Source: Cellulomonas sp. PhB150 (GTDB taxonomy: Bacteria; Actinomycetota; Actinomycetes; Actinomycetales; Cellulomonadaceae). From it: a stretch of 64,000 bases of DNA. The stretch lies in the NCBI RefSeq assembly GCF_003755175.1, contig NZ_RKHX01000006.1, positions 1 through 64,000 on the forward strand, given 5' to 3'. Of the stretch, positions 30,190 through 57,147 are shown in pieces (the first letter of the stretch is position 1; each line of letters begins with the position of its first letter). A program made the position numbers and the translations under genes. The notes under the pieces were generated by a model. That model was not told the DNA's origin, made no database searches, and worked only from the letters and a program-made list of their open reading frames with translations.

Positions 30190-30235
30190 AGCCTGCCGCC
30201 CTGACCAGCACGGCAGCATCGGCAATCGCTACGCA
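30190..30235 (-). promoter_or_regulatory. CIS regulon box B with -10, promoter of the DUF4157 gene
   Basis: Plus-strand positions 30217-30235 read CATCGGCAATCGCTACGCA. In gene direction the box is followed by exactly 21 nt and then CAGGCT (30195-30190) as a -10-like hexamer. The DUF4157 start is 105 bp from the box edge. The same box and spacing occur at 57100-57147 and 32325-32372. Seen: sequence and spacing. Inferred: a shared activator. Confidence 0.7.
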
Positions 30236-30261
30236 GATCGGCCGGTCAGCCGGTCAGGCGG

Positions 30262-32211
30262 TCAGGCGGTCGCGGCCCAGTCCGGGTCGGCGACCCGCCG
30301 GCCGAGCTTGGCCATCTCCCGGTCGGCCGCGAGCCGCACGTCGCGCATGCCCACGTCCCGCCGCTCGGCGACGGCGTCGTAGGCGGCGGCCAGGACGATG
30401 TTGCGGATGTCGCCGCCGGCCAGCTCGAGCGCCTTGCCGAGCAGCGCGACGTCGACCGGGTCGCCCGGGTCGGTGCGGGGCAGCTGCGCCAGGTGGTGGC
30501 GCCAGAGCAGCTCGCGGGTGTCGGTGTCCGGGTCGGGGAAATGGACCATGAAGTGCAGCCGGCGGGCGAAGGCGGGGTCGAGGTTGCCGCGCAGGTTGGT
30601 CGCCAGGATCGTGACGCCCTCCGAGGACTCCATCCGCTGCAGCAGGTAGGAGACCTCCTGGTTGGCGTAGCGGTCGCGCGAGTCGGTCACCGCCGAGCGC
30701 GAGCCGAACAGCGAGTCGGCCTCGTCGAAGAACAGCACCGCGCCCAGCGACTCGGCCTGCGCGAACGCCCGCTCGAGGTTCTTCTCGGTCTCGCCGATGT
30801 ACTTGTCGACGACCGCGGACAGGTCGACCTGGAACAGGTCGGCGCCCAGGGAGTCGGCCACCACGTGCGCGGCCAGCGTCTTGCCGGTGCCCGGGCTGCC
30901 GGAGAACAGCGCGGAGATCCCCGTGCCCTTGCCGCCCTTGCCGTGCAGGTCGCCGAGCGCGAGCACGTCGTCGCGGTCCCGGACCCAGCCGACGAGCCGC
31001 TCGACCTCGCGCCGGGTGTGCGGCGGCAGCACGAGGTCGTCGAGGCTCGCGCCGCCCTCCGCGGAGGACCGTGCCTTCGACGAGCTGCCCGCGGACAGCC
31101 GCCGGGCCGCGGCCCGCACGCCTGCCGCGTCGACCGGGTGGCCGGCCGTCTCGGCGTCGAGCAGCGCGCGGCGGGAGACCGCGTCGATCTGCTCGGGCGC
31201 GAGGCGCAGGGCGAGCACGTCGCGCGTGGCCACGTCGGGGCCGAGCATGCGGTCCCACATCGTGCCGCGCTCGCCGCTCGTGAGCCGCCCCGCGGTGACG
31301 GCCGCGGGCAGGTGCGGCCGCCAGCGCGCGTCGAAGGCGGTGCGCGAGACGGCGACGACGGGCACCACGGAGCGGTCGAGCTCGTCGAGGTACGGCCCGG
31401 CCAGGTGCGCGCCGGCGACGACGAGCACGCACCCGCGCAGCCCGGCCTCGAGCGTCAGGGCCCGCAGCGCGGCGCGGACGACGCCCGCCTCGAGCGGCTC
31501 GGCCGGGCTCGCGGGGAGCCGCTCGAGGTCCGCGACGAGCACGTCGACGTCCAGCGCGCGGCAGGCCGCGGCGGCCAGCCCGGTGCCGGCGGTGCCGAGC
31601 GGTGCGTGCACCCAGACCAGGTGCTCGCCATGGGCGAGGGCCGCGACCGCCTCGTCGACCCCCGGCGCGTCGGCGGCCACCGCCTCGACGATGAGGCGGT
31701 CGACGACCGGGTCGGGCGCGTCGACGCCGAGCAGGCGCGCCGCGACGCGCTCGGGCAGCCGCAGCCGACGGGCGAGCAGCACGTCGTCGCCCTCGACCTC
31801 GAGCAGGCCGCTGCGGCTCAGCAGCCCGGTGACGCCGACCCGCCCCCGCGCGCGCGGGTCGGCGACGGACAGCCCCGCGAGCTCGAGACCGAGCGCGACG
31901 GTCGGCCGCGCCGGGCCGTCGTCGCCCGAGAGCAGCCCCGTGAGGGTGTGGGCCGACGGGTGCGCCTCGGCCAGGGCGGCGAGCGCGAGCAGCGCCGCGT
32001 CGGGGGCGTCGAGGGCGAAGAGCCCGACGAGGTCGTCGAGCGCCTCGTCGAGCGCGCCGAGCCCGGCCGCGTCGGTGTCGACCGCCTGCCAGGCCGCCCG
32101 TGCGGCCGGCTCGACCGCCCACTCGCCCGTGGCCGACCGGCGCTCCAGCGCGGGGCGCAGGGCTGCGCGCACGGCGGGTCCGGCGCCCACCCGCTCGTCG
32201 TCGACCGTCAC
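30262..32211 (-). CDS. AAA+ ATPase of the contractile injection system (Afp15/Pvc15-like)
   Basis: A protein of 649 residues from a GTG (VTVDDERVGAG). The C-terminal half is a classical AAA+ domain: Walker A GSPGTGKT (about 440), the segment DKYIGETEKNLERAFAQAES, Walker B AVLFFDEADSLFG (about 490), sensor-1 region ILATNLRGNLDPAFARRLHF and sensor-2-like AGGDIRNIV. The N-terminal half carries a degenerate nucleotide site (VWVHAPLGTAGTGLAAAAC lacking GKT). In eCIS clusters this ATPase is required for assembly or maturation of the tail. It is transcribed away from the DUF4255 operon and stops 150 bp before the DUF4157 gene. Confidence 0.9.
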   Translation of the reverse strand: MTVDDERVGAGPAVRAALRPALERRSATGEWAVEPAARAAWQAVDTDAAGLGALDEALDDLVGLFALDAPDAALLALAALAEAHPSAHTLTGLLSGDDGPARPTVALGLELAGLSVADPRARGRVGVTGLLSRSGLLEVEGDDVLLARRLRLPERVAARLLGVDAPDPVVDRLIVEAVAADAPGVDEAVAALAHGEHLVWVHAPLGTAGTGLAAAACRALDVDVLVADLERLPASPAEPLEAGVVRAALRALTLEAGLRGCVLVVAGAHLAGPYLDELDRSVVPVVAVSRTAFDARWRPHLPAAVTAGRLTSGERGTMWDRMLGPDVATRDVLALRLAPEQIDAVSRRALLDAETAGHPVDAAGVRAAARRLSAGSSSKARSSAEGGASLDDLVLPPHTRREVERLVGWVRDRDDVLALGDLHGKGGKGTGISALFSGSPGTGKTLAAHVVADSLGADLFQVDLSAVVDKYIGETEKNLERAFAQAESLGAVLFFDEADSLFGSRSAVTDSRDRYANQEVSYLLQRMESSEGVTILATNLRGNLDPAFARRLHFMVHFPDPDTDTRELLWRHHLAQLPRTDPGDPVDVALLGKALELAGGDIRNIVLAAAYDAVAERRDVGMRDVRLAADREMAKLGRRVADPDWAATA

Positions 32212-32300
32212 CCGTGCTCCCGGCTCGCAGTGCCGCGGACCTGCGCTGCAGCGGTCCCGTCCGGCGGCCCGATCATGCCCTGCCGACCGCGGTCGGTCCA

Positions 32301-32322
32301 CCGTCCGGAGGCCTCCGGACGG
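32301..32322. promoter_or_regulatory. 22-bp perfect palindrome beside box C
   Basis: Arms CCGTCCGGAGG and CCTCCGGACGG with no spacer, between the divergent ATPase and DUF4255 genes and only 2 bp from box C. It may be an operator for a second regulator, or a hairpin in the ATPase leader RNA. Confidence 0.5.
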
Positions 32323-32324
32323 AA

Positions 32325-32372
32325 CATCGGTAGCGATTACCGATGCCTGCCCGGCACCCCGTTGCCTAGCGT
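32325..32372 (+). promoter_or_regulatory. CIS regulon box C with -10, promoter of the DUF4255 operon
   Basis: Perfect palindrome of 21 bp: CATCGGTA, five bases (GCGAT), TACCGATG (32325-32345). After exactly 21 nt comes TAGCGT (32367-32372) as a -10-like hexamer, then the DUF4255 start at 32494. Being fully symmetric it could also serve the ATPase on the other side, but there the 21-nt position holds CGGTGG, a poor -10. Confidence 0.75.
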
Positions 32373-32493
32373 CGGGTGGCCTGGGAGAGCCAGGCGCCGG
32401 TGACGCATGCGGACCGTCGGGCAGCCGCACGCGGTGGTCCTGCCGGGCCTCGTCGTCGGACCAGCGGCGGCCGGGACGGGAGGGACAACGCAC

Positions 32494-33069
32494 GTGCTCA
32501 TCCCCGTGATCGACGACGGTCTCGAGCGTCTGCTGCGCACCAGCCTCCCCCTGCCCGTCGACCAGGGCGACGTGTCCTTCGACCCGCCCTCGAGCACGTG
32601 GTCGGCCCAGGTCAACCGCCTGACGGTCAACCTCTACCTGTACAACGTCAGCCGCAGCCCGCAGCCCCCGCGCCCCGCGGCGGTCCGCCCGGGCGCCCGC
32701 GGCACCGAGCGCCGGTTCGCCCTGCCGATGGTCGAGCTGTCCTACCTGGTCTCCGCCTGGGCGGGCTCGCCGCGCGACGAGCACAGCCTGCTCGGCGACG
32801 TCCTGACCCGGCTCCTGGCGTTCCAGGTCCTGCCCGTCGAGCACCTGGTCCGGCCGCCGTCCTCACCCGTCCAGATCGCGCTCGCGGCCGACGACCTCAA
32901 CCGCCCGCGCGAGCTGTGGTCGGGCCTCGGCGGCTCGCTCAAGGCCTCGTTCACGCTCGTCGTCACGGTCGCGGCCGACGCCTACGACTGGGAGCTCGCG
33001 CCCCCGCAGGTCACGCAGGTCGTCCCCGCCACGTCGCTGCTGGACGGGCGGGAGAGCGGCCGCCCATGA
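32494..33069 (+). CDS. DUF4255 CIS tail-cap protein (Afp16/Pvc16-like)
   Basis: A protein of 191 residues. I chose the GTG at 32494 (VLIPVIDDGLERLLRTSLPL), preceded by GGGAGGGACAACG, over an ATG at 32407. Family features: the opening I-x-x-ID-x-x-L, VDQGDVSFDPPSSTWSAQ, VNLYLYNVSRSPQPP and FALPMVELSYLVSAWAGSPR, then EHSLLGDVLTRLL. DUF4255 proteins are eCIS terminators that cap the tail tube and sheath end. It heads a plus-strand operon with three membrane proteins; its stop overlaps the next start by 4 nt (ATGA). Confidence 0.88.
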   Translation: MLIPVIDDGLERLLRTSLPLPVDQGDVSFDPPSSTWSAQVNRLTVNLYLYNVSRSPQPPRPAAVRPGARGTERRFALPMVELSYLVSAWAGSPRDEHSLLGDVLTRLLAFQVLPVEHLVRPPSSPVQIALAADDLNRPRELWSGLGGSLKASFTLVVTVAADAYDWELAPPQVTQVVPATSLLDGRESGRP

Positions 33070-35309
33070 GGGTGAGCAGCACGGTCGAGCGGCTGGACGT
33101 CGCACCCGGTGGCACCGGGGTCGTCCCGCTCGACGTCGTCAACACCTCCGACGTCATCGAGTCGCTCTCGGTGCACGCGCTCGGGGTCCCCGAGGCGCGC
33201 GTGCAGACCGAGCCGCCCGCGCTCGCGCTGTTCCCGGAGGCGTCGGGCGAGCTCACGCTGACGGTCGGCCTGCCCGAGTCGTTCCCCGCGGGCACGTACC
33301 CGGTGACGTTCGTCGTCGCGGGCCGCTCGCCGGGTGCGCGCGAGGCGTACCACGACGTCGACATCGTCGTCCCGGCGCGCCCGCACGTGAGCCTGGCTGC
33401 GACGCCGTCGCTCGTGCGCACGCGCGGGCGCGCCGCCTTCACGGTCGAGGTCCGCAACGACGGCAACGTGCCGCTCGACGTCTCGCTGCGTGCGGTCGAC
33501 AGCGACCGCACCGTGCGGACCACGCTGTCGCCCTCGACCGTCTCGGTCGCGCCGGGCTCGGTCGGCACGGCCACCGTCCTGCTCAAGGGACCGCGCCAGC
33601 TGCTCGGCTCCGACCGCGACCGCCCCGTGACCGTGCTCGCTCAGGCCGCCGAGACCGAGGCGTCCGTCGCGCTCGTGCTGCGGCAGCGGTCCACGCTGAG
33701 CCGCGGGCTGATCACGGTGCTCGTGCTGCTCGCGATCATCGCGGCCTGGGCGCTCGCGTTCCTGCTCGGGATGCAGCAGGTGCTCGGCGCGGACCCGTAC
33801 ACGAAGGTCGCGCCGCCCTCGTTCTTCGCGGCGCTGCCCGCCGAGGGGGCCGACGGGTCCGAGGCGGGGACCGATGCCGACCCGGGCGCTGCCGGGGCCG
33901 CGCCGGCCGGCGCGCTCGCCAAGGACGGCCCCCTGCCCGCGGGCGTCGGCGCGACCGTGACGGGCACCGTCCTGGGCAGCTCCGACAAGCAGGGCATCGG
34001 CCGGATCACGGTCGTCGCGCTCCGGCACGGGCGCGACGGCCTCGTGCAGGTCTCGTCGGCCGCGACCCAGGCCGACGGCACGTACACGATGTCGGGCCTG
34101 TTCCCCGGCGCGTACCTGCTGCGCGTCGAGGCCGACGGGTACGACACCGCCTGGCACCCGTCCGCCGCGACCGAGGCCGCCGCCCAGGAGGTCACCGCGG
34201 TCGCGCAGCAGATCACCACGGGCGCGGACCTGACCGTGGACGGCCACGACGCCACGCTGTCCGGCAACGTCGTGACCGGCGACCCCGAGGACGACGTCGA
34301 GGTCAAGGTCACCGCGCGCCCGTCGTGGAGCGGCGCGGACCCGGAGACGTCCTACGAGACGACGGCCGACGCGTCCGGCGCGTACTCGTTCGCGGACCTG
34401 CCCGCGCCGGGCACGTACGAGCTGACGTTCGCGGCCGAGGGGTACCAGCCGGCGACGACGACCGAGCGCGTGCTCGGCGGCCAGGAACGGTTCGCGCTCG
34501 ACGTGCGGCTCGGCGCGGGCACGGGCTCGATCGCGGGCGTCGTCACCGACGGCACGAACCCGCTCGGCGGCGTCAAGGTCAGCACGACGATCGACGGCAA
34601 GGCGGTCACGGTCGGCACCCCGACCGTCGGCCAGGTCGGCTCGTTCGTCGTGCCGAACCTGCCCACGCCGGGCACGTACGTGCTCACGTTCACCAAGGAC
34701 GGCTTCAGCCCGACGACGTCCGTCGTCGACCTCGGGCCCGGCGAGCAGCGCGCGGACCTGTCCGTCGCGATGCCGGGCGGCGCGGGGACCGTGACCGGCC
34801 GCGTCGTCAGCGCGTCCGGCAAGCCGCTCGGCGGCGTGACCGTGAGCGCCGGCGGCGCTGCGGCCGGCACGACGACCACCACCCTGACCGCGGGCGCCGT
34901 CGGCTCGTTCACCCTCGCCGGCCTGCCCGCGGGCGGATCGGTGACCCTGACCTTCACCCGCAGCGGCTACACGGCCGTCACCCTGCCCGTCACCATCCCC
35001 GCCTCGGGTGCAGCCAAGCCCGTCAAGGTCACGCTCGACTCGGCGCTCGGCTCGCTCACCGGCCGCGTGACGTCCGGCGGCTCGGGCGTCGTCGGGGCGA
35101 CCGTGACGGCCACCGACGGCGGCCTCGTGCGCACCACGACGTCGACGAGGTCCGGCGACCGCGGCTCGGGCACGTACGTGCTGCCCAAGCTCCCCGAGGG
35201 CACGTACACGGTGACGGTCACGGTCGACGACGCGGTCGTCGCGACCTCGATCGTCACCGTCTCGGGCGGCAGCCCGACGGTCTGCGACCTGCCGGTCGGG
35301 GAGGGCTGA
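33066..35309 (+). CDS. Single-pass membrane protein with carboxypeptidase-regulatory-like repeats (1 of 3)
   Basis: A protein of 747 residues. There is no signal peptide. Residues 1-205 form two Ig-like domains (VAPGGTGVVPLDVVNTSDVI; TRGRAAFTVEVRNDGNVPLD). A membrane span follows at about 215-238 (LITVLVLLAIIAAWALAFLL), preceded by RQRSTLSR, so positive-inside gives the N-domain in the cytoplasm and the rest outside. After an acidic, Ala/Gly-rich stalk come about five carboxypeptidase-regulatory-like domains, e.g. GSIAGVVTDGTNPLGGVKVS and GTVTGRVVSASGKPLGGVTV. It is followed 1 nt later by its paralogue. I infer a link between cytoplasmic CIS and cell surface; no enzyme motif is visible. Confidence 0.75.
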   Translation: MRVSSTVERLDVAPGGTGVVPLDVVNTSDVIESLSVHALGVPEARVQTEPPALALFPEASGELTLTVGLPESFPAGTYPVTFVVAGRSPGAREAYHDVDIVVPARPHVSLAATPSLVRTRGRAAFTVEVRNDGNVPLDVSLRAVDSDRTVRTTLSPSTVSVAPGSVGTATVLLKGPRQLLGSDRDRPVTVLAQAAETEASVALVLRQRSTLSRGLITVLVLLAIIAAWALAFLLGMQQVLGADPYTKVAPPSFFAALPAEGADGSEAGTDADPGAAGAAPAGALAKDGPLPAGVGATVTGTVLGSSDKQGIGRITVVALRHGRDGLVQVSSAATQADGTYTMSGLFPGAYLLRVEADGYDTAWHPSAATEAAAQEVTAVAQQITTGADLTVDGHDATLSGNVVTGDPEDDVEVKVTARPSWSGADPETSYETTADASGAYSFADLPAPGTYELTFAAEGYQPATTTERVLGGQERFALDVRLGAGTGSIAGVVTDGTNPLGGVKVSTTIDGKAVTVGTPTVGQVGSFVVPNLPTPGTYVLTFTKDGFSPTTSVVDLGPGEQRADLSVAMPGGAGTVTGRVVSASGKPLGGVTVSAGGAAAGTTTTTLTAGAVGSFTLAGLPAGGSVTLTFTRSGYTAVTLPVTIPASGAAKPVKVTLDSALGSLTGRVTSGGSGVVGATVTATDGGLVRTTTSTRSGDRGSGTYVLPKLPEGTYTVTVTVDDAVVATSIVTVSGGSPTVCDLPVGEG

Positions 35310-35310
35310 C

Positions 35311-37833
35311 GTGCGCCTCGACCTCGCGCCGCACCGCGCCGTCGCCACCCCGGGCACGCCGGTGACGTTCCTGGCGACCGTCACGAACACGACCGCGCTC
35401 ATCGCGGGCTACAGCGTGCGGGTCCTGGGTGCCGACCCGTCGTGGGTGCGCGTCGACGACCCACAGCTGCGGCTGTTCCCCGACGAGACCGCGTCCGTGG
35501 TCATCACCGTCCAGCTGCCCGAGGGCGTCCCGGCGGGTGACCGGCGCATCGCCGTGCAGATCCGCGACCTGACCGACGCGGGCGCGATCGCCGTGCAGGA
35601 GGTCGTGCTCGACGTGCCGCCGCTGCCGCGCGCGACCGCCCGCCTGGACCCGCCGACGATGACCGGCGGCTCCGCGGCGGTCTTCGCGGTGCTCGTCCAC
35701 AACGAGGGCAACACGGTCCAGCACGGTCGCGTCGTCGCGCGCGACCCCGAGGCGCTGACCACGTTCACGCTCCAGCCCGCGCAGTACAGCCTGCCGCCCG
35801 GCGAGAGCGTCACGGTCGCGATGCGCGCGCGGGCCAAGCGGCCCTGGCTCGGCGACCCCGCGCTGCGGCCGTTCGAGGTGCGCCTCGACGGACCCACCGC
35901 GCCCCCGGCTGACGCGCCGCCCGCCGCGGCCGGCGTGTTCATCCAGAAGCCCCGGCTCTCCCGCGGGCTGCTCGCGCTGCTCGGCCTGCTGCTCGCGATC
36001 TCCGTGTTCGCCGTGATCATCACGCTCGCGCTGAGCTCGGTCGTCGGGCGCTCGGCCGCGGACCGCGACCTCGCGCTGCAGGTGGCCCAGGCCCGCTCCG
36101 ACCAGACGGCCACGGGCACCTCCACGCTGACCGGCGCGGTCACCGACCTCTCGACGGGCGCGCCGGTCGGCGACGTGTCGGTCGAGGCGTTCGGCGACGA
36201 CCCCGCGACGCCGCTGCTCACGGTCGCGACCGGCGACGACGGGACGTACTCGCTCGAGCGGCTCCCCGCCGGGACGTACACGCTGCGCGTGCGCGGCGCC
36301 GGGTTCGACGAGACCTGGTACCCGGCGGCGCCCACGCAGGCCGACGCGCAGCAGGTCGAGGTCGCCACCGGGCAGTCGGTCGCCGGCCTGACCGTCCTCG
36401 TCGGCGGCGTGCCCGCGACGCTGGCCGGGTCCGTGACGGGCACCGACGTCGCGGGCGCGGTCCTGTCCGTCCAGCTCCCGCTCGACACCGGCCCGCTCGC
36501 GACGACGGACACCTCCGCGCCCGGCGAGGCGCCGGCGACCGCGACGAGCGGGGCGGTCGTCCGCACGGTGCCGATCGGCGCGGAGGGCACGTTCGAGATC
36601 GACGACCTGCCCTCGCCCGCGGTGTACGACCTCGTGGTCACCAAGGCCGGGCTCGCGAGCTCGGTGCAGCGCGTCGACGTCGCGGCCGGCGAGGACCGCA
36701 CGGGCGTGCGGCTCTCGCTCGTGCAGGGCGACGGCTCGATCACCGGGACGGTCAGCGGGTTCGACGGCCCGGTCACCGGCGCGACCGTCGTCGCGGGGGA
36801 CGGCAGCGTCTCGGTGGAGACCGTGACTCTCACGCAGGACAACCCCGGCGGGTTCGTCCTGCGCGGGCTGCCCACCCCGGGCACGTACACGGTCGTCGTC
36901 TCGGCCGACGGGTACGCGCCCTCGACCCTGAGCCTCAGCCTCAGTGAGGGCCAGGCGCTGACGGGCGTCGCCGTGGTCCTCGGCCGCGACGAGGCGAGCC
37001 TCGGGGGCACGGTGAGCGTGCCGGGCGGTGACGCGGGCGGGGTGTCCGTGACGGTCACCGACGGCGCGCTCACGCTGCAGACGGTCACGCAGTCGACCAA
37101 GCCCGTGGGCCGGTGGTCGCTCGCGGGGCTGCGCGTGCCCAGCACGTACACCGTGACGTTCGCGCGCGCGGACCTGGAGTCGCAGGTGCTGTCGGTGAGC
37201 GTCGACGCGTTCGGGAACGTCACCGCCGGGGCGTCGTCGGCAGGCGCGGTCGACGTGACCATGCGCGGCGCGACGGGCACGATCTCCGGCACCGTCAAGC
37301 AGCCACCGACGAAGGGCGCGAGCGCCGCACCGATCGGCAACGTCAAGGTCACCGTGAGCTCGGGCAGCGACCAGCGCGTGGTCTACACCGCCTCGACCCC
37401 GCGGTCGAAGGTCGGCAGCTACGTCGTCGACGGCCTGACCCCCGGCACCTACACGGTGACGTTCTCCCGCAGCGGCACGCGCGCGACCTCGGAGATCGTC
37501 GTGCTGGCCGCCGCGCAGAAGTACCCGCTGTCGCCGACGCTCGTCGCCGCGGCCCGGGTCTACGGCACGGTGACCGTCGACGGCGGCGGCTCGGCCGGCG
37601 CGGTCGCCGTGCTGCTCTACCGGGCCTCGGAGTACGGCACGGCCGCCGGTCCCGTCGCCTCGATGACGGCGAGCAGTGCCGGCGCCTACAGCTTCGCCGA
37701 CGTGGACGCGCCCGAGAACTACATCGTCGAGGTGCGCGTCACCCCGGACGGGGCCGTGCTCGCGACCTCGTCCGCCGTCACCCTGGCCGCCAGCGCGCAG
37801 CTGAAGGTCGACGTCTCCGTGCCGAACGACTAG
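35311..37833 (+). CDS. Single-pass membrane protein with carboxypeptidase-regulatory-like repeats (2 of 3)
   Basis: A protein of 840 residues from a GTG one base after the previous stop. Same plan as the neighbour at 33066: two N-terminal Ig-like domains (HRAVATPGTPVTFLATVTNT; MTGGSAAVFAVLVHNEGNTV), a span at about 218-243 (GLLALLGLLLAISVFAVIIT) preceded by QKPRLSR, then about six repeats such as STLTGAVTDLSTGAPVGDVS, GSITGTVSGFDGPVTGATVV and GTISGTVKQPPTKG. No signal peptide; predicted N-in, C-out. The level of similarity indicates an old duplication. Part of the DUF4255 operon. Confidence 0.75.
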   Translation: MRLDLAPHRAVATPGTPVTFLATVTNTTALIAGYSVRVLGADPSWVRVDDPQLRLFPDETASVVITVQLPEGVPAGDRRIAVQIRDLTDAGAIAVQEVVLDVPPLPRATARLDPPTMTGGSAAVFAVLVHNEGNTVQHGRVVARDPEALTTFTLQPAQYSLPPGESVTVAMRARAKRPWLGDPALRPFEVRLDGPTAPPADAPPAAAGVFIQKPRLSRGLLALLGLLLAISVFAVIITLALSSVVGRSAADRDLALQVAQARSDQTATGTSTLTGAVTDLSTGAPVGDVSVEAFGDDPATPLLTVATGDDGTYSLERLPAGTYTLRVRGAGFDETWYPAAPTQADAQQVEVATGQSVAGLTVLVGGVPATLAGSVTGTDVAGAVLSVQLPLDTGPLATTDTSAPGEAPATATSGAVVRTVPIGAEGTFEIDDLPSPAVYDLVVTKAGLASSVQRVDVAAGEDRTGVRLSLVQGDGSITGTVSGFDGPVTGATVVAGDGSVSVETVTLTQDNPGGFVLRGLPTPGTYTVVVSADGYAPSTLSLSLSEGQALTGVAVVLGRDEASLGGTVSVPGGDAGGVSVTVTDGALTLQTVTQSTKPVGRWSLAGLRVPSTYTVTFARADLESQVLSVSVDAFGNVTAGASSAGAVDVTMRGATGTISGTVKQPPTKGASAAPIGNVKVTVSSGSDQRVVYTASTPRSKVGSYVVDGLTPGTYTVTFSRSGTRATSEIVVLAAAQKYPLSPTLVAAARVYGTVTVDGGGSAGAVAVLLYRASEYGTAAGPVASMTASSAGAYSFADVDAPENYIVEVRVTPDGAVLATSSAVTLAASAQLKVDVSVPND

Positions 37834-37876
37834 TCCAGCCCGACCCCAGACCTGACCGAGAACGAGGAGGACCCCC

Positions 37877-44651: not shown

Positions 44652-44658
44652 GCCAGGG

Positions 44659-45126: not shown

Positions 45127-45677
45127 GACGCCAGCTCTCCTTCTTCGGCGGTCCCGGTCAGGACCGGCCAGACTCGTCGGCCGGACACCCGGACCTCGAC
45201 GTGCACGTGCGCGGGGACCTCGTCGAGCACCAGGCGCACGAAGTCCGGCTCGGCGAGCGTGCCGGTCGACTCGACCTCGAGCACCACCCACGCCGGACCG
45301 TCGGGCGCCTCGCCCTCGGCGTAGACGCCGCCGCTCTCGCTGACCTGCACCGGACCGCCCGAGTAGAGCTCCACGATGCGCGCCAGACCCGTCGCCGTGC
45401 CCCGCCACTGCAGCGTCGCCGCTGCTGTCCGCAGGATACGTCGCTGCACGTCCTGCGGGTAGGAGGGGTCGATGCTGCGGCCGAGCCACTGGGCCATCTG
45501 GCGCACCATCGCCGGCGGGGTCAGGTCGACGTCGGCCAGGTGGGGAAGGTTGTCGGCGTGCTGCAGGAGCGTGCCGGCCTCCTCCTGGAAGATCGAGACG
45601 AACCGCACGAAGAAGTCCTCCGCCTGCATGCCGTGGGGCAGCTGGCGCAGGAGCCAGTCGGAGTGGCGACCGGTCAT
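45123..45677 (-). CDS. CIS phage tail protein I-like baseplate component
   Basis: A protein of 184 residues matching the tail-protein-I type found in eCIS and thermophilic phage-like clusters: HSDWLLRQLPHGMQAEDFFV, FQEEAGTLLQHADNLPHLAD, MVRQMAQWLGRSIDPSYPQD, and LQWRGTATGLARIVELYSGG. It is equivalent in position to Afp12/Pvc12-region products that complete the baseplate wedge and connect to fibres. Both ends overlap neighbours by 4 nt. I see no tail-fibre gene behind it, unlike Afp/PVC clusters. Confidence 0.85.
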   Translation of the reverse strand: MTGRHSDWLLRQLPHGMQAEDFFVRFVSIFQEEAGTLLQHADNLPHLADVDLTPPAMVRQMAQWLGRSIDPSYPQDVQRRILRTAAATLQWRGTATGLARIVELYSGGPVQVSESGGVYAEGEAPDGPAWVVLEVESTGTLAEPDFVRLVLDEVPAHVHVEVRVSGRRVWPVLTGTAEEGELAS

Positions 45678-47614: not shown

Positions 47615-48042
47615 CAGGCGTCCTCACGGGGGATGACGTAGAAGGGGTAGACGAGGTTGCGGCGGTCGTTCGTCGCGCGCACACGGTAGGCGATCGAGAT
47701 CCGCACCAGCCCGGAGTCGTCGTCGTCCTGCACGGGCGAGACGTCCTCGACCTCGATGCGCGGCTCCCACTGGGCGAGCGCGTCGCGCACGGCCTGCGAG
47801 ATGAGGCCGACGAGGTTGGCGTTGACCGGCTCGAACAGCAGGTCCCAGATCCGGCAGCCGAACTGCGGGCGCATGAGGCGCTCGCCGGGCGCGGTGAGCA
47901 GCACGACGCGGATCGAGTCCTCGAGGTCGCCGCCGGGCGCCGTGAGCGCGATCGACCCGGTGTGGTCGACGCCGAGCGGCCAGGCGAAGCCCCGCCCGAC
48001 GAAGTCGGGGGAGGTGCCGGGGACGGTGGTGGGCTCGCTCAT
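47614..48042 (-). CDS. CIS gp25-like baseplate protein
   Basis: A protein of 142 residues. It matches the GPW/gp25 family: GRGFAWPLGVDHTGSIALTA, DLEDSIRVVLLTAPGERLMR, PQFGCRIWDLLFEPVNANLV and a C-terminal strand VRISIAYRVRATNDRRNLVY. The gp25 core links the spike hub to the sheath and the wedge. It lies between spike and J-like genes, as in phage T4-like and eCIS order. Confidence 0.93.
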   Translation of the reverse strand: MSEPTTVPGTSPDFVGRGFAWPLGVDHTGSIALTAPGGDLEDSIRVVLLTAPGERLMRPQFGCRIWDLLFEPVNANLVGLISQAVRDALAQWEPRIEVEDVSPVQDDDDSGLVRISIAYRVRATNDRRNLVYPFYVIPREDA

Positions 48043-49802: not shown

Positions 49803-50455
49803 GAGTCGATCCGCGGGACGCTGATGAGGCTGCCGGGTCGCAGGCTCAGGGGGTCGGCGATCGCGTTGGCCGCCGCGAGCGTGCGCCAGCGCGTCGAGTC
49901 GCCGTAGTAGGTCGCGGCGATCCGGTCGAGCGTCTCGCCGGCCTGCACGCGGTGCACGCGGTGCGGCTTGGGCGTGCCCGAGGTCGGGTTCTGCCGGCCG
50001 AACGCGTTCGACGGCTCGTACTGCCGCATCGTCAGCGACATGGTCGCGCGCAGGGGCGTGCCCGTGCCGGAGAAGTAGGTGAACGCGAGCTGCAGGTCGC
50101 TCACCACGGCCTTGAACGAGTGCAGGTCGCCCCAGTGGAACGTCACGTACGGCGGTCGCACGTTGTGGCTCGTCTCGTCCGAGCCCGGCAGGGTCGGGTC
50201 GACGTCCATGAGCGCGACGATCTTGCCGGTGTACGTGGACACGGCGGTGCCGGTGTCGGTGGTGTCGAAGAACAGGTCGACCTTGAGCACGCCCGACTCG
50301 GCACCCGTGTAGCGCAGGCGCGGCACCCCGCGGCCCGGCATGGAGTCACCGGCCCACGAGTTGGAGCGGCTGATCTGCAGCTCGGCGGGGTTGAACAGGC
50401 ACGGCACGCGCGCGCCACCCTCGATCTCGAGGTACGCCTTCTCGACGCCGGCCAT
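49799..50455 (-). CDS. CIS hub protein with LysM domain (Afp7/Pvc7-like)
   Basis: A protein of 218 residues. The N-terminal domain (AYLEIEGGARVPCLFNPAEL, RLRYTGAESGVLKVDLFFDT) is the CIS tube/hub adaptor (gp53-type) domain; the C-terminus carries a LysM fold (HRVHRVQAGETLDRIAATYY; LAAANAIADPLSLRPGSLIS). LysM in this protein holds the spike to the tube and is not thought to bind peptidoglycan. Its start overlaps the stop of the large Pro/Ala-rich gene by one base. Confidence 0.92.
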   Translation of the reverse strand: MAGVEKAYLEIEGGARVPCLFNPAELQISRSNSWAGDSMPGRGVPRLRYTGAESGVLKVDLFFDTTDTGTAVSTYTGKIVALMDVDPTLPGSDETSHNVRPPYVTFHWGDLHSFKAVVSDLQLAFTYFSGTGTPLRATMSLTMRQYEPSNAFGRQNPTSGTPKPHRVHRVQAGETLDRIAATYYGDSTRWRTLAAANAIADPLSLRPGSLISVPRIDS

Positions 50456-53400
50456 CAGAACACCTCCGTGCCACGGCGCCAGGAGCGGCGCTCGGTCTCT
50501 TCCTGCAGCCGCCGCTCCACGAGCCGCAGCACGTGGTCGTCGAGCTCGTCACGCTTCCACTGCTCGAGCCGGTCGATCACGCGCTGCTCGATGGCGTCGA
50601 CGTCGACGGCGTGGGTCCCGGCGGGGCTGCCGGCTGACGTGAAGCTCATGGGGACTCCCGAGACGTCGGGCGAGGGCGCGGCGAGCGCGGGGTCGGACGA
50701 GGCGAGCAGGGCCGCCATCATCGATCCCGCGGGCGCCCCGAGGGCGGAGGCGGGCACCGGCGGCGGCGAGCCCGCGTCGCGCGAGTCGCCGATCGTCGGT
50801 GCGTCGGACGGGCGGGCCAGGCCGGCGGTGCGCGGCGGCAGCATCGACCACTGGGCGGGCAGGGCGGGGACGCTCGCGGCGACGCCCGGGGTGGGGGGTG
50901 CGTTGCCGGGCCCTGCGGCGAGGGCGGGGGCGACGGTCCCGACGATGCCGCGGTGCGAGCCGGCGTCGGTCAGCGACCCGCCGCGGGCGACGGGGGCGGG
51001 CGTGCCCTTGGTCCACCGACGGACCTTGGGGCCCGATGCCCGCGTGCCCGGGGCCGCGGGCGTCGTCGGCGTCCCGGTCACGAGGCCCGCGAAGGCGGGA
51101 CGCGCGGTCATGCCGCGACCGCCGGCCGCGCCCGACGCCGGCCGGACCGACTGCGGAGCCATCATCCTCAGCGCGAAGCCGGGGCCGGGGGCGTCGGCCG
51201 TGGAGGACTCCCAGGCGGCGTGCCCGGCGGGGAGGGTCGTGGCGGCCGACGAGAGCGCGGTGGCCGACGCGGCGGCGTTCGACCCGCTCGTCGCCGAGCG
51301 GCGGACCGGGCGAGCCGGGGCGGGTGCCGCGAGCACGCCGGGCGACGACGAGCGGGGGGCGCCTGCCGTCGGCGTGCCGGTCGGGGCCGCGGGGCTGCTC
51401 GACAGGACCGACGTCGTCCTCGTGGAGCCCGCGGGCGTCGCCGCGACTGGCTCGCCCACGCGTGCGGCGGCGAGCCGCGCGGCGGACTGCGCGTTCGGGC
51501 CCGGCAGCCCGGGCTGCGCGCCGACCGCGATCGTCGACGAGGACCGAGCGCCCGACGAGCGCGTCGCGCGCCGGACCGTGCCGCGCTCGATGCCGAGCCC
51601 GCGGCGGGTGTCGTCCGCCCAGCCGGGGCGGTGGCCGAGGCGGTGGTGGCCCGCGCCGGGGAGCTGGGTGCTCGGGCGCTCGTGCGGGGTCGGGCGCGTG
51701 CCGGCGTGCGTGGAGGGCGTGGCGGTGGGGTGCGCGGAACTCGCGGCGCTCGCGGTGAGGGAGGCCAGGCGGCGGAGCGGTGCGGGCGTCCCGGCGGCGG
51801 TCGGGCTCGTCGAGGCGGCAGCGCTCGTGGCGGCGGTCGATGCGGGCGCGGTGCTGGGCGTCGCGGTCGCTCCGGCCGATCGCGCGGCGAGGCCCGGCGC
51901 CGCCGGTGCCGCGGTCGATGTCGGGGATCCGGGCGCGGCTGTGGTCGTCGCGGACGTGGTCGTCGATGCGCCGATCCGGGCGACGCCGTTCTCCGACGGG
52001 CCGGCGACGGCCGGGGCCCCACCGGCCGTGCTCGCGGGCGAAGCCATGGCAGGCGCCGGGGCGGGTGCGCTCGCGGCGACGGCGCTCGCGCTGCTGGCCG
52101 TGACGCTCGGTGCGGCGTGACGCCCGGCAAGGCGGCCGGCGGCGGGCGCCCCGAGCCCCGCGACGTCGGCCCGCTCAGCGGTCCCGAGCCGGATCGCGGC
52201 GGCGGCGGGCGCGGTGCCGGGAGCGACGCTGAGCCGCGCGCGGGCGGTCGCGTCGCCGGTCGACCCCGTGGTGCCGCGCAGGGCGGGCGTGAGCACGCGG
52301 CGCAGCGCCCCGGCGAGCGATCGACGCGCCACGACCGGCAGCCCGGGGGCCGCCGCACCCGTCACGCCGCCGCGCACCAGCCCGGTCATCGCCAGCCCGG
52401 CGGGCGGGGCGGTCGCCGAGCCCGGCGCGGGAGCGGTGGCGGACGGCGCGATGGCGGTCGAGGCGGCGGGGTCGAGCGGCGCGGGGGCGACCGGCGCCGA
52501 CGCGGGGGATCCGACCGTCGACGACGCAGCGGCGCGGGTCTCGGCCGACGCGCGGGATCCCGAGCTCGCGCCCGGGGCGGCACCGGCCGGTCCCGCAGAA
52601 GCGAGCGGAGCTGCCGGTGACGACGCCGCACCCGAGGGGGAGGCGGTCGACCCCGAGACCGCCGCCGACGTGGAGGGCGTGGAGGGCGTCGACGCGGCGG
52701 GCGCGGGCGCGTCTCCACGGGTCCCGCCCGACGGGGTCGCCGCGACGGCAGGGGTGGTGGCCGTCGGCGCGGTCCGGCCCGGCACGCTCGACGCGGCCTC
52801 GCTCGTGGGCGTCGAACCCGTCGTGCCCGCCGTGCCCGTCATGGCCCCGGCGGCCCGTGCGCCCAGCACCCCGGCCGCGGTCGGCGCAGTCAGCGTGGGC
52901 GTCGCCGCGGGGCGGAGCTTGGCGGCCGGCGCGCTGCTGGTCGGGAGGGCACCGGCGGCGGTGGCGCGCCGCACGTCAGCGCGGGAGCCGGGGGCCGACA
53001 ACGGAGCGAGCGCGCCAGGGAGGTTCGTCTGCCCGGCGGGCACCGCGGTGCGGGTGCGCGACGGCGTGGCGGTCAGTGCCGCGCGCTCCGTGCGCGCGGC
53101 TGCGACGGCCGTCGCGAGGGCGCGTCGGCGCAGCAGCCGACCGCCCGGGGACGGCGCGGCCGCGACGGGTGAGGTGAGCGGCGGGCTCGTCGTCTCGGCG
53201 GTTCCGGGAGTCCGGGTGACGCGGCCGGCGGGCGGCGCGGTGGACGACGAGCGCCCGGACCCCTCGTCGTTCCCCGGTCGGGACCGGGCGACCGTGGACG
53301 TGGAACCGGGTGGAGCGGGGGAGACGTGGGCCGAGCGGGCGCGGGCGCCGTCGCTGTCGGTCACCATCGTGCCTGCGGCGCGCACGTCGGCGCTCACGCG

Positions 53401-53817
53401 GACGCGGATCGTCTCGGGCTTGAGCCGCGCGGGTACGGCGCCGGGGCGGCGCGTGGCCTCGTCGGGGATGCGCTGGACCATGAGGGGCAGGCCGCGGGGC
53501 ATCTCGGCGGCCTGCTCGGCGGCGAGGCTCGCGGCACGCAGCGGCGCGGTCTCGGCCCACCAGCGCGGCGGAGCGACGTCGGCGCCCGCGGTCGAGCGGA
53601 CGGCCATCGGTGCCGACGGCCCGGCCAGCGCACGACGCACCGCGACCGGGCGGCCCCAGCCGCTGGCCATGCGGACCGACGACGACGCGACCGAGCCGAT
53701 CGGCGACGGACGCAGCCGGCCCAGGCGCGGACCCGGCCGGCGCATGCGCGCGGCGACGGCCCGGCCGAGCCGGGTGTTGTCGTCGGGCACCCGAACAGGC
53801 CCGGGGTCGGTGCTCAC
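50455..53817 (-). CDS. 1120-residue Ala/Pro/Ser/Thr-rich protein inside the CIS operon
   Basis: Starts at a GTG (VSTDPGPVRVPDDNTRLGRA) overlapping the second tube gene by 4 nt and ends at a TGATG with the LysM gene, so it is truly part of the operon. Nearly the whole length is low-complexity Ala/Pro/Ser/Thr/Gly/Arg with no fold recognised, except short hydrophobic-charged islands (GLPLMVQRIPDEATRRPGAV) and a C-terminal helix (about 1070-1120: DAIEQRVIDRLEQWKRDELD, DHVLRLVERRLQEETERRSW). Its place matches Afp6 or the phage tape-measure slot. Long competing frames on the plus strand are an effect of GC bias. Confidence 0.7.
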   Translation of the reverse strand: MSTDPGPVRVPDDNTRLGRAVAARMRRPGPRLGRLRPSPIGSVASSSVRMASGWGRPVAVRRALAGPSAPMAVRSTAGADVAPPRWWAETAPLRAASLAAEQAAEMPRGLPLMVQRIPDEATRRPGAVPARLKPETIRVRVSADVRAAGTMVTDSDGARARSAHVSPAPPGSTSTVARSRPGNDEGSGRSSSTAPPAGRVTRTPGTAETTSPPLTSPVAAAPSPGGRLLRRRALATAVAAARTERAALTATPSRTRTAVPAGQTNLPGALAPLSAPGSRADVRRATAAGALPTSSAPAAKLRPAATPTLTAPTAAGVLGARAAGAMTGTAGTTGSTPTSEAASSVPGRTAPTATTPAVAATPSGGTRGDAPAPAASTPSTPSTSAAVSGSTASPSGAASSPAAPLASAGPAGAAPGASSGSRASAETRAAASSTVGSPASAPVAPAPLDPAASTAIAPSATAPAPGSATAPPAGLAMTGLVRGGVTGAAAPGLPVVARRSLAGALRRVLTPALRGTTGSTGDATARARLSVAPGTAPAAAAIRLGTAERADVAGLGAPAAGRLAGRHAAPSVTASSASAVAASAPAPAPAMASPASTAGGAPAVAGPSENGVARIGASTTTSATTTAAPGSPTSTAAPAAPGLAARSAGATATPSTAPASTAATSAAASTSPTAAGTPAPLRRLASLTASAASSAHPTATPSTHAGTRPTPHERPSTQLPGAGHHRLGHRPGWADDTRRGLGIERGTVRRATRSSGARSSSTIAVGAQPGLPGPNAQSAARLAAARVGEPVAATPAGSTRTTSVLSSSPAAPTGTPTAGAPRSSSPGVLAAPAPARPVRRSATSGSNAAASATALSSAATTLPAGHAAWESSTADAPGPGFALRMMAPQSVRPASGAAGGRGMTARPAFAGLVTGTPTTPAAPGTRASGPKVRRWTKGTPAPVARGGSLTDAGSHRGIVGTVAPALAAGPGNAPPTPGVAASVPALPAQWSMLPPRTAGLARPSDAPTIGDSRDAGSPPPVPASALGAPAGSMMAALLASSDPALAAPSPDVSGVPMSFTSAGSPAGTHAVDVDAIEQRVIDRLEQWKRDELDDHVLRLVERRLQEETERRSWRRGTEVF

Positions 53818-54278
53818 TTGTCCGACGCCTTGAACCCGTTGTGCGCGACCTCGAGGGTCTCGACGAGGGCCTCGGGCTGGTCGATGGACAGGCGCGGGCC
53901 GGCCCAGGCGACCGCGAAGACGCCCTCGAACTCCCACGAGCGCAGGCGCGTGCCGAGGTGGTCGACCACCGTGACGGCGCCCGTCGCGCGCGTGAGCTTG
54001 TTCTGGTTGGCGGCGAACCCGTCGCCCGAGGTCTTGCCGACCCACGCGAACAGCGCGTCGGAGTTGACCAGGCCGCGGCGGAACACGAGGTTCGGCCAGG
54101 TCAGCACGCCGGGGAACCGATGCACGTACTGGTTCTGGCCGCCCTCGACGTAGGTGTGCGTCGTGGCCGTGACCTGGAGGCCGGAGACCTCCTTGAAGGC
54201 GCCGATCTCGACGCCGTCCACCTCGAACAGGAAGTTGGTGGAGACGGGTGCGTCGCCACCGAGCGGCTGCTCAGGCAC
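53814..54278 (-). CDS. CIS inner tube protein 2 (gp19/Hcp-like)
   Basis: A protein of 154 residues from a GTG. The T4 gp19-like tube fold is marked by STNFLFEVDGVEIGAFKEVS, GLQVTATTHTYVEGG, VHRFPGVLTWPNLVFRRGLV and VVDHLGTRLRSWEFEGVFAV, then VETLEVAHNGFKAS. It is the less abundant tube type near the baseplate (Afp5-like). It follows the DUF6760 micro-protein with an 8-nt overlap and is followed by the Pro/Ala-rich gene. Confidence 0.92.
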   Translation of the reverse strand: MPEQPLGGDAPVSTNFLFEVDGVEIGAFKEVSGLQVTATTHTYVEGGQNQYVHRFPGVLTWPNLVFRRGLVNSDALFAWVGKTSGDGFAANQNKLTRATGAVTVVDHLGTRLRSWEFEGVFAVAWAGPRLSIDQPEALVETLEVAHNGFKASDK

Positions 54279-54444
54279 TGTCTCTCACCGCTTCCCATGC
54301 TCGGGCGTTCATGGCCGAGACCGCGCGCACCATGCGCACGCGGTCCATGTGCTCGAGGTCCAGCAGGTCGGCGAGCGGCCAGTGCAGGTGGTACGCCAGG
54401 TAGGCGATCTCCTGCCACAACGCGTCGACCGGGTAGCGAAGCAT
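54271..54444 (-). CDS. DUF6760-family micro-protein, 57 residues
   Basis: A short gene between the tail-assembly and the second tube gene. It starts with an ATG 2 nt after the preceding TAG. Translation begins MLRYPVDALWQEIAYLAYHL and continues HWPLADLLDLEHMDRVRMVR, ending WEAVRDSA. The W-P-x-x-x-L-L-x-L-x-H-x-x-R pattern is the DUF6760 signature seen in eCIS and phage-like tails at this very place. Likely a small assembly chaperone for tube or sheath; no activity is known. Confidence 0.85.
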   Translation of the reverse strand: MLRYPVDALWQEIAYLAYHLHWPLADLLDLEHMDRVRMVRAVSAMNARAWEAVRDSA

Positions 54445-54446
54445 GG

Positions 54447-54926
54447 CTAGCGGGCCTCGGTACGGATCTCCTCGATGGACGCCCGGCCGGGCCGGGGCAG
54501 GCTGACGCCGGCCTCGGGGGCCGCCGCGGGTGCCTCGTCGGGCACAGGAGGCGCGACGGGCGCCGGGGCCGAGACCCCGGTCGCCACGCCGAGCGCGCGC
54601 TGAGCCGCGACGAACTCGTCGAACTCCTCCTGCGTGCCGAAGTTGATCACTCCGTAGAAGTCCTGCAGGTACGCCAGGTCCGCCGCGAAGAGACCCTCGA
54701 TCTCGTGCGGCGTGACCTGGGACAGCGTGCCGAGCTCCTCCACCACGCGGGCCAGGACGACGATCGTCAGACGCGGGTCGTCCGGGCCCGTGACGGTGGG
54801 GTCGCGCAGCGGCTCCAGCTCGTCACGGGCCGTCGCGAGGCGCATGACGCCGTCGCGGTGGAGACCCCCGTCGCGGTCGACGTAGCCCCGCGGCAGGGTG
54901 AACTCGTAACGGGTCTTGAGGGTCAC
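54447..54926 (-). CDS. CIS tail assembly protein (gpE/G-like)
   Basis: A protein of 159 residues from a GTG (VTLKTRYEFTLPRGYVDRDG) with a 4-nt overlap to the first tube gene. The core (residues 1-105) has the compact tail-assembly-chaperone pattern: GVMRLATARDELEPLRDPTV, RLTIVVLARVVEELGTLSQV and IEGLFAADLAYLQDFYGVIN. The C-terminal 45 residues are Pro/Ala-rich and probably flexible. Position between tube and DUF6760 is standard for eCIS and thermophilic phage clusters. Confidence 0.82.
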   Translation of the reverse strand: MTLKTRYEFTLPRGYVDRDGGLHRDGVMRLATARDELEPLRDPTVTGPDDPRLTIVVLARVVEELGTLSQVTPHEIEGLFAADLAYLQDFYGVINFGTQEEFDEFVAAQRALGVATGVSAPAPVAPPVPDEAPAAAPEAGVSLPRPGRASIEEIRTEAR

Positions 54927-55402
54927 TTGACCCGCTCGAGCGTCTCGATCACGAGGGTGATGTTCTCCTTGATCGGGTCGTTCGAGTCCACGCTGAGCTG
55001 GTCGGTCGCGATCTTGCTCGGCCAGGCGTTCGTGAAGTTGAACCGCGCCACCTCGACGTGCGTCGAGTCGTACAGCACCACGGAGCCGTTCTTGCGGTTG
55101 CTGGTGCGGTCGCTCAGCGCGATGCCCTTGGTGCGGATGTCGTGGAACCAGGCCCACAGCTTGTCCTGCTTCGAGTCCGGCGGGGCCAGGCGCGTCAGCG
55201 TCAGGTCGCCGGTCTTGTTGCGGCCGGCGAGCGTCTTGATGGTCTGCGACTTGCCGTCCTTGCCGACCTGCTGCGTCGTGGCCACCTCCATCTCGACGTC
55301 GAGGCCGCTCACGGACGCGAGGATCGTGACGACGGAGCCGTCGATCTCGAGGAAGAAGTTCTGGGCGATCAGCGGGTCGGTGTTGATCAGGGCGTTGGGC
55401 AT
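54923..55402 (-). CDS. CIS inner tube protein 1 (gp19/Hcp-like)
   Basis: A protein of 159 residues. It reads PNALINTDPLIAQNFFLEID, VVTILASVSGLDVEMEVATT, AGRNKTGDLTLTRLAPPDSK, WAWFHDIRTKGIALSDRTSN and ITLVIETLERVK, the gp19 tube pattern (F-x-x-x-I-D-G...V-S-G-L-x-x-E). It is the main tube ring protein beneath the sheath. The gap of 40 bp to the sheath stop is the widest in the structural part of the operon, which may allow a separate initiation rate for this high-copy subunit. Confidence 0.93.
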   Translation of the reverse strand: MPNALINTDPLIAQNFFLEIDGSVVTILASVSGLDVEMEVATTQQVGKDGKSQTIKTLAGRNKTGDLTLTRLAPPDSKQDKLWAWFHDIRTKGIALSDRTSNRKNGSVVLYDSTHVEVARFNFTNAWPSKIATDQLSVDSNDPIKENITLVIETLERVK

Positions 55403-55442
55403 GAAGGTGCTCCTCGTCTAGGTGTGGGCCGGCGCGAGCGCG

Positions 55443-57008
55443 TCAGGACGCGATCTGCTTGTTCTGGCTGATCCGGAAGATGACGAACTCGGCGGGCTTG
55501 ACCGGCGCGATGCCGACCTCGACGACGAGCCTGCCGGCGTCGATCGACTCCGGGGGGTTCGTCGTCGCGTCGCAGTTGACGAAGAACGCCTGGTCGGGGC
55601 TGGCGCCGAACAGCGCGCCGGCAGACCACAGACCGCGCAGGTAGGCGTTGAGCGTGCGCTTGACGCCCTCCCACAGGGCGACGTCGTTCGGCTCGAAGAC
55701 GGCCCACTGGGTGCCCTCGAGGATCGTCGACTCGATCATGTTGAACAGGCGACGCACGTTGATGTACTGCCAGTCGGTGTCCGAGGCGAGGGTGCGGGCG
55801 CCCCACACGCGGATGCCGCGGGTGCCGAACGGGCGGATCGCGTTGATGCCGATCGGGTTGAGGATGCCCTGCTCGTTCTGGGTGATCGAGCGCTCGACGT
55901 CGAGCACGCCGCGCAGGGTGTCGTTGGCCGGGGCCTTCCACACGCCGCGCGTCTCGTCGGTCCGGGCCCACAGGCCGGCCACGTGGCCCGACGGCGGGAC
56001 GAGGATCTCGGAGTTGCCGTTGGTGCCGGTCGGGTTCTCGACCTTGATCCAGGGGTAGTACAGCGCGGCGAAGGCCGAGTCGTACTGCGCCGACTCCGAG
56101 CGCCACTCCTTGACCTGCTGCGGGGAGAGCCCGGGAGGGGCGTCGAGGATCGCGACGCGGTTGGCGTGCAGCTCGCAGTGCGCGATGAGCGCGGTCTGCA
56201 CGGCCTTCCACAGCCCCAGGTCGAGCGAGCCGTCCGCCTTCGTCGCGGCCGTGATCAGGTCCGGGACGGCCACGATCGTGACGTCCTCGGCGATCGCGAG
56301 GCCGTTGATGCCCGAGCGGGCCGTCTCCGAGCCGGCGAACTTGCGGCCCGAGACGGGCGTCGCGACGGGCGCGGCCTTCTCGAGCGAGTAGGCGCCGGGC
56401 TTGAGGACCTCGAGCTGGCTGGACAGGTCGACGTCCTTCTCGAGCTTGAGCTCGACCTTGACCTTGGTCGACGTCTTGTTGATGACGGTCGCGGCGTCGC
56501 GCGGGCCACCGATGGTCAGGTCGTCGTACGACTCCACGACCTCGCCGGCGTCGACGATCGTGATGCTGAACGGCGCGGGGCCGTCCTCGTCCTCGGTCTC
56601 GAGCGTCTCGACGACGACCGTGATGTTCGCGTCGGGCTCGACGGACTCGATCGCGAGCGGCAGGCCGAGCGAGCGGTCCGTGGCCGGCAGGCTCAGGCGG
56701 GCCGGCTCGCCGGAGGGCTCGGCGTTGGGGATGCGCACGATGTAGGCCATCGCGCCGCCGTTGAGGAAGAAGCCGTAGACCGACAGCGGCAGGATCGCGC
56801 CCTCGACGAAGCCGCCGTACAGCGCCTCGTACTGGGTCCAGCTCGTCACGAGCCGCGGCGCGAGGCCGTCCGGGTCCAGCGGGTCGTCCTGCGGCGCACG
56901 CTCGGTGAAGCCGACGAAGGCGGCGACGGCGGTCGGTGCCGAGGCCAGGACCTTCTGGGACGAGGGGATCTCCTCGACGTACACGCCGGGTGCGGTGTAA
57001 GTAGGCAC
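55443..57008 (-). CDS. CIS contractile sheath protein
   Basis: A protein of 521 residues. I chose the GTG at 57008 (VPTYTAPGVYVEEIPSSQKV), preceded by AGAGAAGGAATGGCCA, because it gives the invariant sheath N-terminus; the frame stays open upstream. Further motifs: AVAAFVGFTERAP, ALYGGFVEGAILPLSVYGFF, NGGAMAYIVRI, and at the C-terminus WSAGALFGASPDQAFFVNCD with GRLVVEVGIAPVKPAEFVIF. These are standard for the phage tail sheath/FI family in eCIS. There is one sheath gene only, unlike the three of Afp. It is the first gene of the operon. Confidence 0.95.
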   Translation of the reverse strand: MPTYTAPGVYVEEIPSSQKVLASAPTAVAAFVGFTERAPQDDPLDPDGLAPRLVTSWTQYEALYGGFVEGAILPLSVYGFFLNGGAMAYIVRIPNAEPSGEPARLSLPATDRSLGLPLAIESVEPDANITVVVETLETEDEDGPAPFSITIVDAGEVVESYDDLTIGGPRDAATVINKTSTKVKVELKLEKDVDLSSQLEVLKPGAYSLEKAAPVATPVSGRKFAGSETARSGINGLAIAEDVTIVAVPDLITAATKADGSLDLGLWKAVQTALIAHCELHANRVAILDAPPGLSPQQVKEWRSESAQYDSAFAALYYPWIKVENPTGTNGNSEILVPPSGHVAGLWARTDETRGVWKAPANDTLRGVLDVERSITQNEQGILNPIGINAIRPFGTRGIRVWGARTLASDTDWQYINVRRLFNMIESTILEGTQWAVFEPNDVALWEGVKRTLNAYLRGLWSAGALFGASPDQAFFVNCDATTNPPESIDAGRLVVEVGIAPVKPAEFVIFRISQNKQIAS

Positions 57009-57099
57009 TGGCCATTCCTTCTCTCGGGAGGTGCCTCCGCTGCCCGGGCTGAATGAGCCTGTGTGTGCACGGAGACCGAAGACGCGAGTGTGTCTTTGC

Positions 57100-57147
57100 G
57101 AGGCTAGGAATCCCGCCGAGCAGGGGCATCGGTAATCGCTACGCAAC
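57100..57147 (-). promoter_or_regulatory. CIS regulon box A with -10, promoter of the sheath operon
   Basis: Plus strand 57127-57145 reads CATCGGTAATCGCTACGCA. In sheath direction the box is followed by exactly 21 nt and then TAGCCT (57105-57100). The sheath GTG is 119 bp from the box edge. The box occupies the place of a weak or missing -35, as expected for an activator-dependent promoter. It also lies about 65-130 bp upstream of the divergent LuxR gene. Confidence 0.75.

Follow-up and report, generated by a model that had tools for sequence, protein, structure and literature searches.

LuxR-type control of a contractile injection system (CIS) was known before, in Streptomyces. In S. coelicolor the sheath operon depends completely on the LuxR-family protein SCO4263 for its transcription, whose start was mapped to 32 bp ahead of the start codon (PMC2000904). 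In S. lividans, particles require the homologue slpR (PMC8505568), and SCO4263 belongs to the class I targets of sigma-E (PMC6767563). GerE genes adjoin 25.8% of eCIS loci and have been called the first conserved eCIS regulator (PMC8213781). Among the ten motifs reported in PMC2000904, none is like the known motifs of the TTA-encoded regulators that it names. The operator described below was not found in the open-access literature searched. It is a 16-base box, GTAGCGATTRCCGATG in gene direction, present in three exact copies in a 64,000-nt stretch of Cellulomonas sp. PhB150 (NZ_RKHX01000006.1, positions 1 to 64,000; hereafter the window). The copies stand at promoters of a CIS locus: those of the sheath operon, of the unit headed by the Pvc16_N (DUF4255) gene and of a putative effector gene with an eCIS_core (DUF4157) domain. 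Site, spacing, conservation, specificity and co-occurrence with a LuxR gene establish a real, conserved, CIS-specific operator-promoter module. The box is probably the operator of a CIS-specific activator at class-II-type promoters, the best candidate being the protein of the LuxR/LAL (large ATP-binding LuxR) type encoded beside the sheath operon.

The locus resembles the Streptomyces CIS (SLP) cluster in holding a LuxR-family gene, which in the form of SCO4263/SlpR is needed there for sheath transcription or particles (PMC2000904, PMC8505568). The two regulators differ in size, SCO4263 having 1251 aa against 872 aa here, and SCO4263 is not marked as an LAL in the accessible part of PMC3282765. 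Other eCIS loci share the adjoining GerE gene, whereas the accessible text describes no operator or promoter architecture for them (PMC8213781). The window protein agrees with the LAL regulators in length (~870 aa) and layout, with a nucleoside triphosphatase (NTPase) domain near the N-terminus (AAA_16, residues 42-159, E 4.3e-9) and a GerE helix-turn-helix (HTH) at the C-terminus (residues 817-865, E 3.9e-12). Its Walker A motif reads GEAGVGKT, and both sequence marks of the family, of which MalT is the archetype, are present: a large protein with a C-terminal GerE/LuxR HTH, and a P-loop NTPase on the N-terminal side. It differs from the LAL regulators in being tied to a CIS.

All three copies of the box had been pointed out in an earlier note on this DNA, and exact matches are indeed found at each place. 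The note gave one spacing of 21 nt from box to hexamer; this holds at the Pvc16_N and effector promoters, and the sheath promoter has 20. Its distances of 119, 105 and 149 from box edge to start codon are, once counted inclusively, the same as the 118 (sheath), 104 (effector) and 148 (Pvc16_N) intervening nt read here. The Pvc16_N site is not the perfect 21-bp palindrome that the note had seen: only its 8-bp arms, CATCGGTA and TACCGATG, are perfect, about an asymmetric 5-bp centre, GCGAT (8-5-8). Nor are the promoters unlinked, all three lying within one 27-kb locus. In the 3.8-Mb genome (9 contigs) the only copies at up to one mismatch are these three; one further site has two mismatches and 40 have three, and the total of 44 sites at up to three mismatches compares with 68 for a reversed-pattern control. 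A plasmid-borne box was sought with window positions 57050-57280, without a match among 72,556 plasmid records.

Two observations belong to the Pvc16_N site. Immediately upstream, at 32301-32322, lies a 22-bp palindrome, CCGTCCGGAGGCCTCCGGACGG, which ends two bases before the inverted repeat; by eye, it is not evident beside the box in relatives, where the flanks compared are short. That the box might also drive the AAA ATPase gene from its back side was rejected on reading the sequence, which has no TANNNT there at 20-21 nt.

Conservation was followed through sheath homologues sought by protein similarity in 150 genomes of the family. Among 42 sheath matches, 22 are of this CIS type, 9 others were read and 11 left unread; the 22 loci (at least 78% identity) are held by 21 genomes. 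The box, at 0-3 mismatches, is present in 22 of 22, 89-121 nt before the start codon, and with one mismatch at four sheath loci (76-77% identity) of a second family of the order (f13). All 26 sheath promoters found by protein similarity (26/26) thus carry it at 0-3 mismatches, and in every one the start of a TANNNT hexamer follows at a distance of either 20 or 21 nt; the background frequency is 35 in 13,104 positions of the 26 sheath regions, box-linked sites included. Mean pairwise identity across these promoters is 0.90 in the box, against 0.39 in the spacer and 0.31 upstream (-20 to -10), and recent copying of one promoter was rejected on these figures. Further promoters (L174-L253) were found with a pattern that itself demands TANNNT at 18-22 nt, and the spacing count therefore rests on the 26 found by protein similarity. 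Of 34 distinct Pvc16_N promoters, a partly pattern-selected set from which duplicates were removed, 30 have TANNNT at 21 nt and four at 20 nt. A T stands three bases before the box in all distinct promoters (35/35 sheath, 34/34 Pvc16_N), and an A at -7 and -6 relative to the box in 79-91% of them. Genera carrying the box include Cellulomonas, Actinotalea, Sanguibacter, Georgenia and Pseudactinotalea; Pseudactinotalea suaedae is placed under Cellulomonadaceae by NCBI. One 80%-complete genome (G026) has two sheath loci of this CIS (C99, C141), and both are accompanied by a separate box and a separate LuxR match.

The box is largely confined to CIS loci. In the 21 CIS genomes of the family, 38 of 41 sites at up to one mismatch adjoin CIS genes, and the other three have no TANNNT at 20-21 nt. 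Outside these genomes 23 such sites occur: two are CIS-related (G147, G074), 13 proved on reading to be without TANNNT at 20-21 nt, and 8 are unread. A wider scan of 84,980 genomes, which may leave out records very near the window's genome, used the pattern GTAGNGATTACCGATG-N18..22-TANNNT, in which the fixed G at position 4 excludes the GTACCG form. It gave 90 stretches, of which 80 were listed and read; 43 of the 80 are CIS loci by tblastn, with the box at the sheath gene in 16 and at pvc16 in 27. At sheath loci of other CIS types (43 read, at most 55% identity) the gene strand offers no match with fewer than 5 mismatches; these loci include 11 from f37 (probably Streptomyces; 47-52% sheath identity). 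A chance origin of the box was rejected on the genome copy counts, the 84,980-genome scan and the spacing conserved in every sheath promoter. A separate look-alike at one mismatch, GTAGCGCTTGCCGATG, is found a single time in each of 16 genomes; in the seven cases read (L041, L042, L044-L048) its flanks are near-identical and no TANNNT follows.

The presence of the box goes with that of the neighbouring regulator gene. A LuxR homologue, divergent from the sheath gene by position, occurs in 21 of 21 CIS genomes of the family. Among sheath loci of at least 68% identity, the box is found in 26 of 26 with an adjacent LuxR gene and in 0 of 14 with none in the upstream flank: four in a third family of the order, where the best match has 5-6 mismatches, and ten outside the order, with 4-7. 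Within the regulator it is the HTH that is best kept: over 21 distinct full alignments its identity is 59-88%, compared with 31-73% in the NTPase part and 30-56% in the middle, three rows with a truncated or false HTH alignment (L196, L178, L153) having been set aside. The HTHs of the second family are 66-68% identical; the GerE paralogues in the window's own genome reach 37-45%, for the 8 of 21 that align at E<1e-4. In all four genomes of the second family (G335, G260, G234, G247; L314-L321) a second LAL-like match stands in tandem behind the LuxR gene. One genome (G074; L147/L148) keeps the LuxR gene and the box, with a 40-codon frame similar to the first codons of the sheath gene, and the other CIS genes were not found in the 40 kb read; on this reading the CIS seems to have been lost there and its switch left behind.

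A different regulator, encoded elsewhere, could also own the box, for example a global stress or development factor, with the LuxR/LAL protein a mere neighbour or upstream actor. The genome offers 21 GerE matches besides this one (22 in all, 20 over Pfam's cut-off). The sigma-E targets listed for Streptomyces include SCO4263, the LuxR gene, as well as SCO4253, the sheath gene (PMC6767563); in S. clavuligerus, CIS genes go up when bldD is overexpressed (PMC13102240). Against such a factor, the box follows the adjacent LuxR gene (all 26 loci with it, none of 14 lacking it), and a global regulator should have sites outside the CIS, whereas none with a -10 occurs among the sites read. This explanation is unlikely, and the LuxR/LAL protein is preferred as the protein that acts at the box.

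In the mechanism proposed, a dimer or larger oligomer of the C-terminal HTH of the LuxR/LAL protein would bind the inverted repeat CATCGGTA-N5-TACCGATG. The promoter-proximal half of this repeat hardly varies, and the distal half is degenerate. Between its end and what is probably a sigma-70-type -10 element (TANNNT) there are 20-21 nt. If transcription starts ~7 nt behind the -10, the dyad centre would fall near -43, in the place of a class II activator, and would replace the -35 element. In class II activation the activator site adjoins or replaces the -35 element, and in the LuxR-type form the lux box lies near -42.5. The promoters here are like these in having an inverted repeat adjoining the -35 region, a fixed distance to the -10 (20 or 21 nt in all 26 sheath promoters) and no TTG-type -35, TTG at a spacing of 16-19 nt being found in 0 of 26 sheath promoters tested; they differ in the sequence of the box, and their start sites are predicted. 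One regulator would then turn on both the sheath operon and the Pvc16_N unit, and in some of the genomes the effector gene as well. LuxR binding, an activating sign, the start sites and an inducing signal are inferred.

The sign of regulation could in principle be the reverse. Inverted repeats also serve repressors. The position of the box speaks against a repressor operator: it precedes the -10 by a constant 20-21 nt, at about -34 to -54 if the starts are normal, in promoters where the TTG-type -35 is missing from all 26, and the known LuxR protein of the Streptomyces CIS is required for transcription (PMC2000904). We regard repression as improbable. Still more improbable is an alternative sigma factor for which the box would be the -35: box and hexamer are conserved together, as in extracytoplasmic function (ECF) regulons, but 16 conserved bases with dyad symmetry plus 20-21 nt are too long for the usual -35/-10 pair, the -10 is of the common TANNNT type, and effectors have the same box with a different hexamer.

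Several points weigh against an operator of the LuxR/LAL activator. The link between LuxR and box is correlative, the loci being related by descent, and at the 14 loci counted as LuxR-less the gene was sought only in ~1.5 kb of upstream flank. The distance from box to -10 varies by 1 nt (20 or 21), and some CIS promoters match the box poorly (G029, 3 mismatches). The best -35 score at a spacing of 16-19 averages 3.04 of 6, against 2.45 in a random-position control. In the wide scan, 37 of the 80 listed stretches have no nearby homologue of the five window proteins used in tblastn; 35 of them have 28-56% G+C, and the other two, an Arthrobacter and a Sandarakinorhabdus, 62 and 65%. The effector promoters vary more. 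Of 24 distinct effector-like loci, most of which entered the count via the box at Pvc16_N and not via an effector box, 13 have the box at 0-2 mismatches, one (G335) has it at 3, and ten have none (at least 4 mismatches); in five of the ten the match is short, 79-94 aa, and may belong to another effector. A further locus (G045), with a match that begins only at residue 570, was left out of the count. Behind the box of the 13, TANNNT occurs within 40 nt in none.

The earlier reading of the box as a regulon signal in the -35 position is supported. Its view that the arrangement is not due to chance is backed by conservation and by the scan of 84,980 genomes, and the absence of TTG at a spacing of 16-19 in 26 of 26 sheath promoters agrees with a box that takes the place of a good -35. 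The note held that loss of the box from orthologous loci, or many copies unrelated to CIS genes, would speak against it; the box is present in the former, and no promoter-like set lies outside CIS genes among the sites read, 8 being left unread. A single signal joining structure, Pvc16/membrane side and effector is supported, its effector part for only the 13 of 24 distinct effector-like loci.

The promoter variant at the effectors is the least expected part of the module. In place of TANNNT, 12 of the 13 box-bearing loci have NAGGCT at 20 or 21 nt behind the box, against a background of 36 in 55,440 positions of upstream regions, box-linked sites and duplicates included. This conserved off-consensus hexamer suggests a lower or more strictly activator-dependent output. 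A two-tier promoter code, in which one dedicated activator and one box would serve structural units through TANNNT and about half of the effector loci through a box variant with NAGGCT, so that cargo is set lower or later than the particle, is a tentative idea. If it were true, box plus hexamer would be a tag for further members of the regulon. A candidate is the Septum_form/DUF4280 unit of the second family, in which all four genomes (G335, G260, G234, G247) have an extra box with TANNNT elsewhere in the CIS locus. In each of the four, a frame of 164-165 aa begins 62-71 nt past this box; that of G234, the only one scanned, encodes a Septum_form protein (PF13845). The frame behind the box of G335 is followed by one for a PAAR-like DUF4280 protein (PF14107).

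The gene content of the window locus is that of a CIS of the eCIS type, with sheath, tube, baseplate, Pvc16_N, AAA ATPase and eCIS_core all within one locus. The structural genes are those for sheath, tube, a LysM tube protein, hub, gp25, gpJ and gpI; they are accompanied by the AAA ATPase, Pvc16_N/DUF4255 and eCIS_core genes and by large carboxypeptidase-regulatory-like repeat proteins. The rightward unit headed by Pvc16_N runs on into these last, and its part at ~33.1-43.9 kb encodes very large proteins with up to 8 such repeats. The coordinates are collected in the table.

Table. Promoter elements and genes of the CIS locus, in window positions
Feature	Position	Strand	Remark
Box, sheath-operon promoter, GTAGCGATTACCGATG	57127-57142	(-)	exact box copy
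-10-like hexamer TAGCCT, sheath promoter	57101-57106		20 nt downstream of box
Box, Pvc16_N/DUF4255 promoter, inverted repeat CATCGGTA-GCGAT-TACCGATG	32325..32345 (box copy 32330-32345)	(+)	
-10-like hexamer TAGCGT, Pvc16_N promoter	32367-32372		21 nt downstream of box
Box, effector (eCIS_core/DUF4157) promoter, GTAGCGATTGCCGATG	30217..30232	(-)	exact box copy
Off-consensus -10-like hexamer CAGGCT, effector promoter	30190-30195		21 nt downstream of box
CIS sheath gene, first of structural operon	55443..57008	(-)	Phage_sheath_1, Phage_sheath_1C matches
Pvc16_N (DUF4255) gene, first of rightward unit	32494..33069	(+)	domain match
Putative effector with eCIS_core (DUF4157) domain, 1065 aa	26915..30112	(-)	domain match
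AAA ATPase gene, divergent from Pvc16_N gene	30262..32211 (start approximate)	(-)	domain match
LuxR/LAL-type regulator, 872 aa, proposed box-binding activator; gene divergent from sheath operon	57275..59893	(+)	AAA_16 and GerE matches

In f37 (L322-L341), 8 of 10 genomes have another inverted repeat, TGCC-N3..7-GGCA, in the 260 nt ahead of the sheath gene; among 2000 random windows taken from these regions, 5.5% contain it. This repeat may be the counterpart of the present operator in the other CIS type.

That many CIS loci have a LuxR-type regulator beside them was known, and in the papers found the joint switching of the units had not been traced to a DNA site. A 16-base operator at a fixed distance from the -10 makes of these units a directly testable regulon. 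It also provides a way to seek unlinked cargo or accessory genes, and the promoter set is a means to ask which signal triggers the injection machine.

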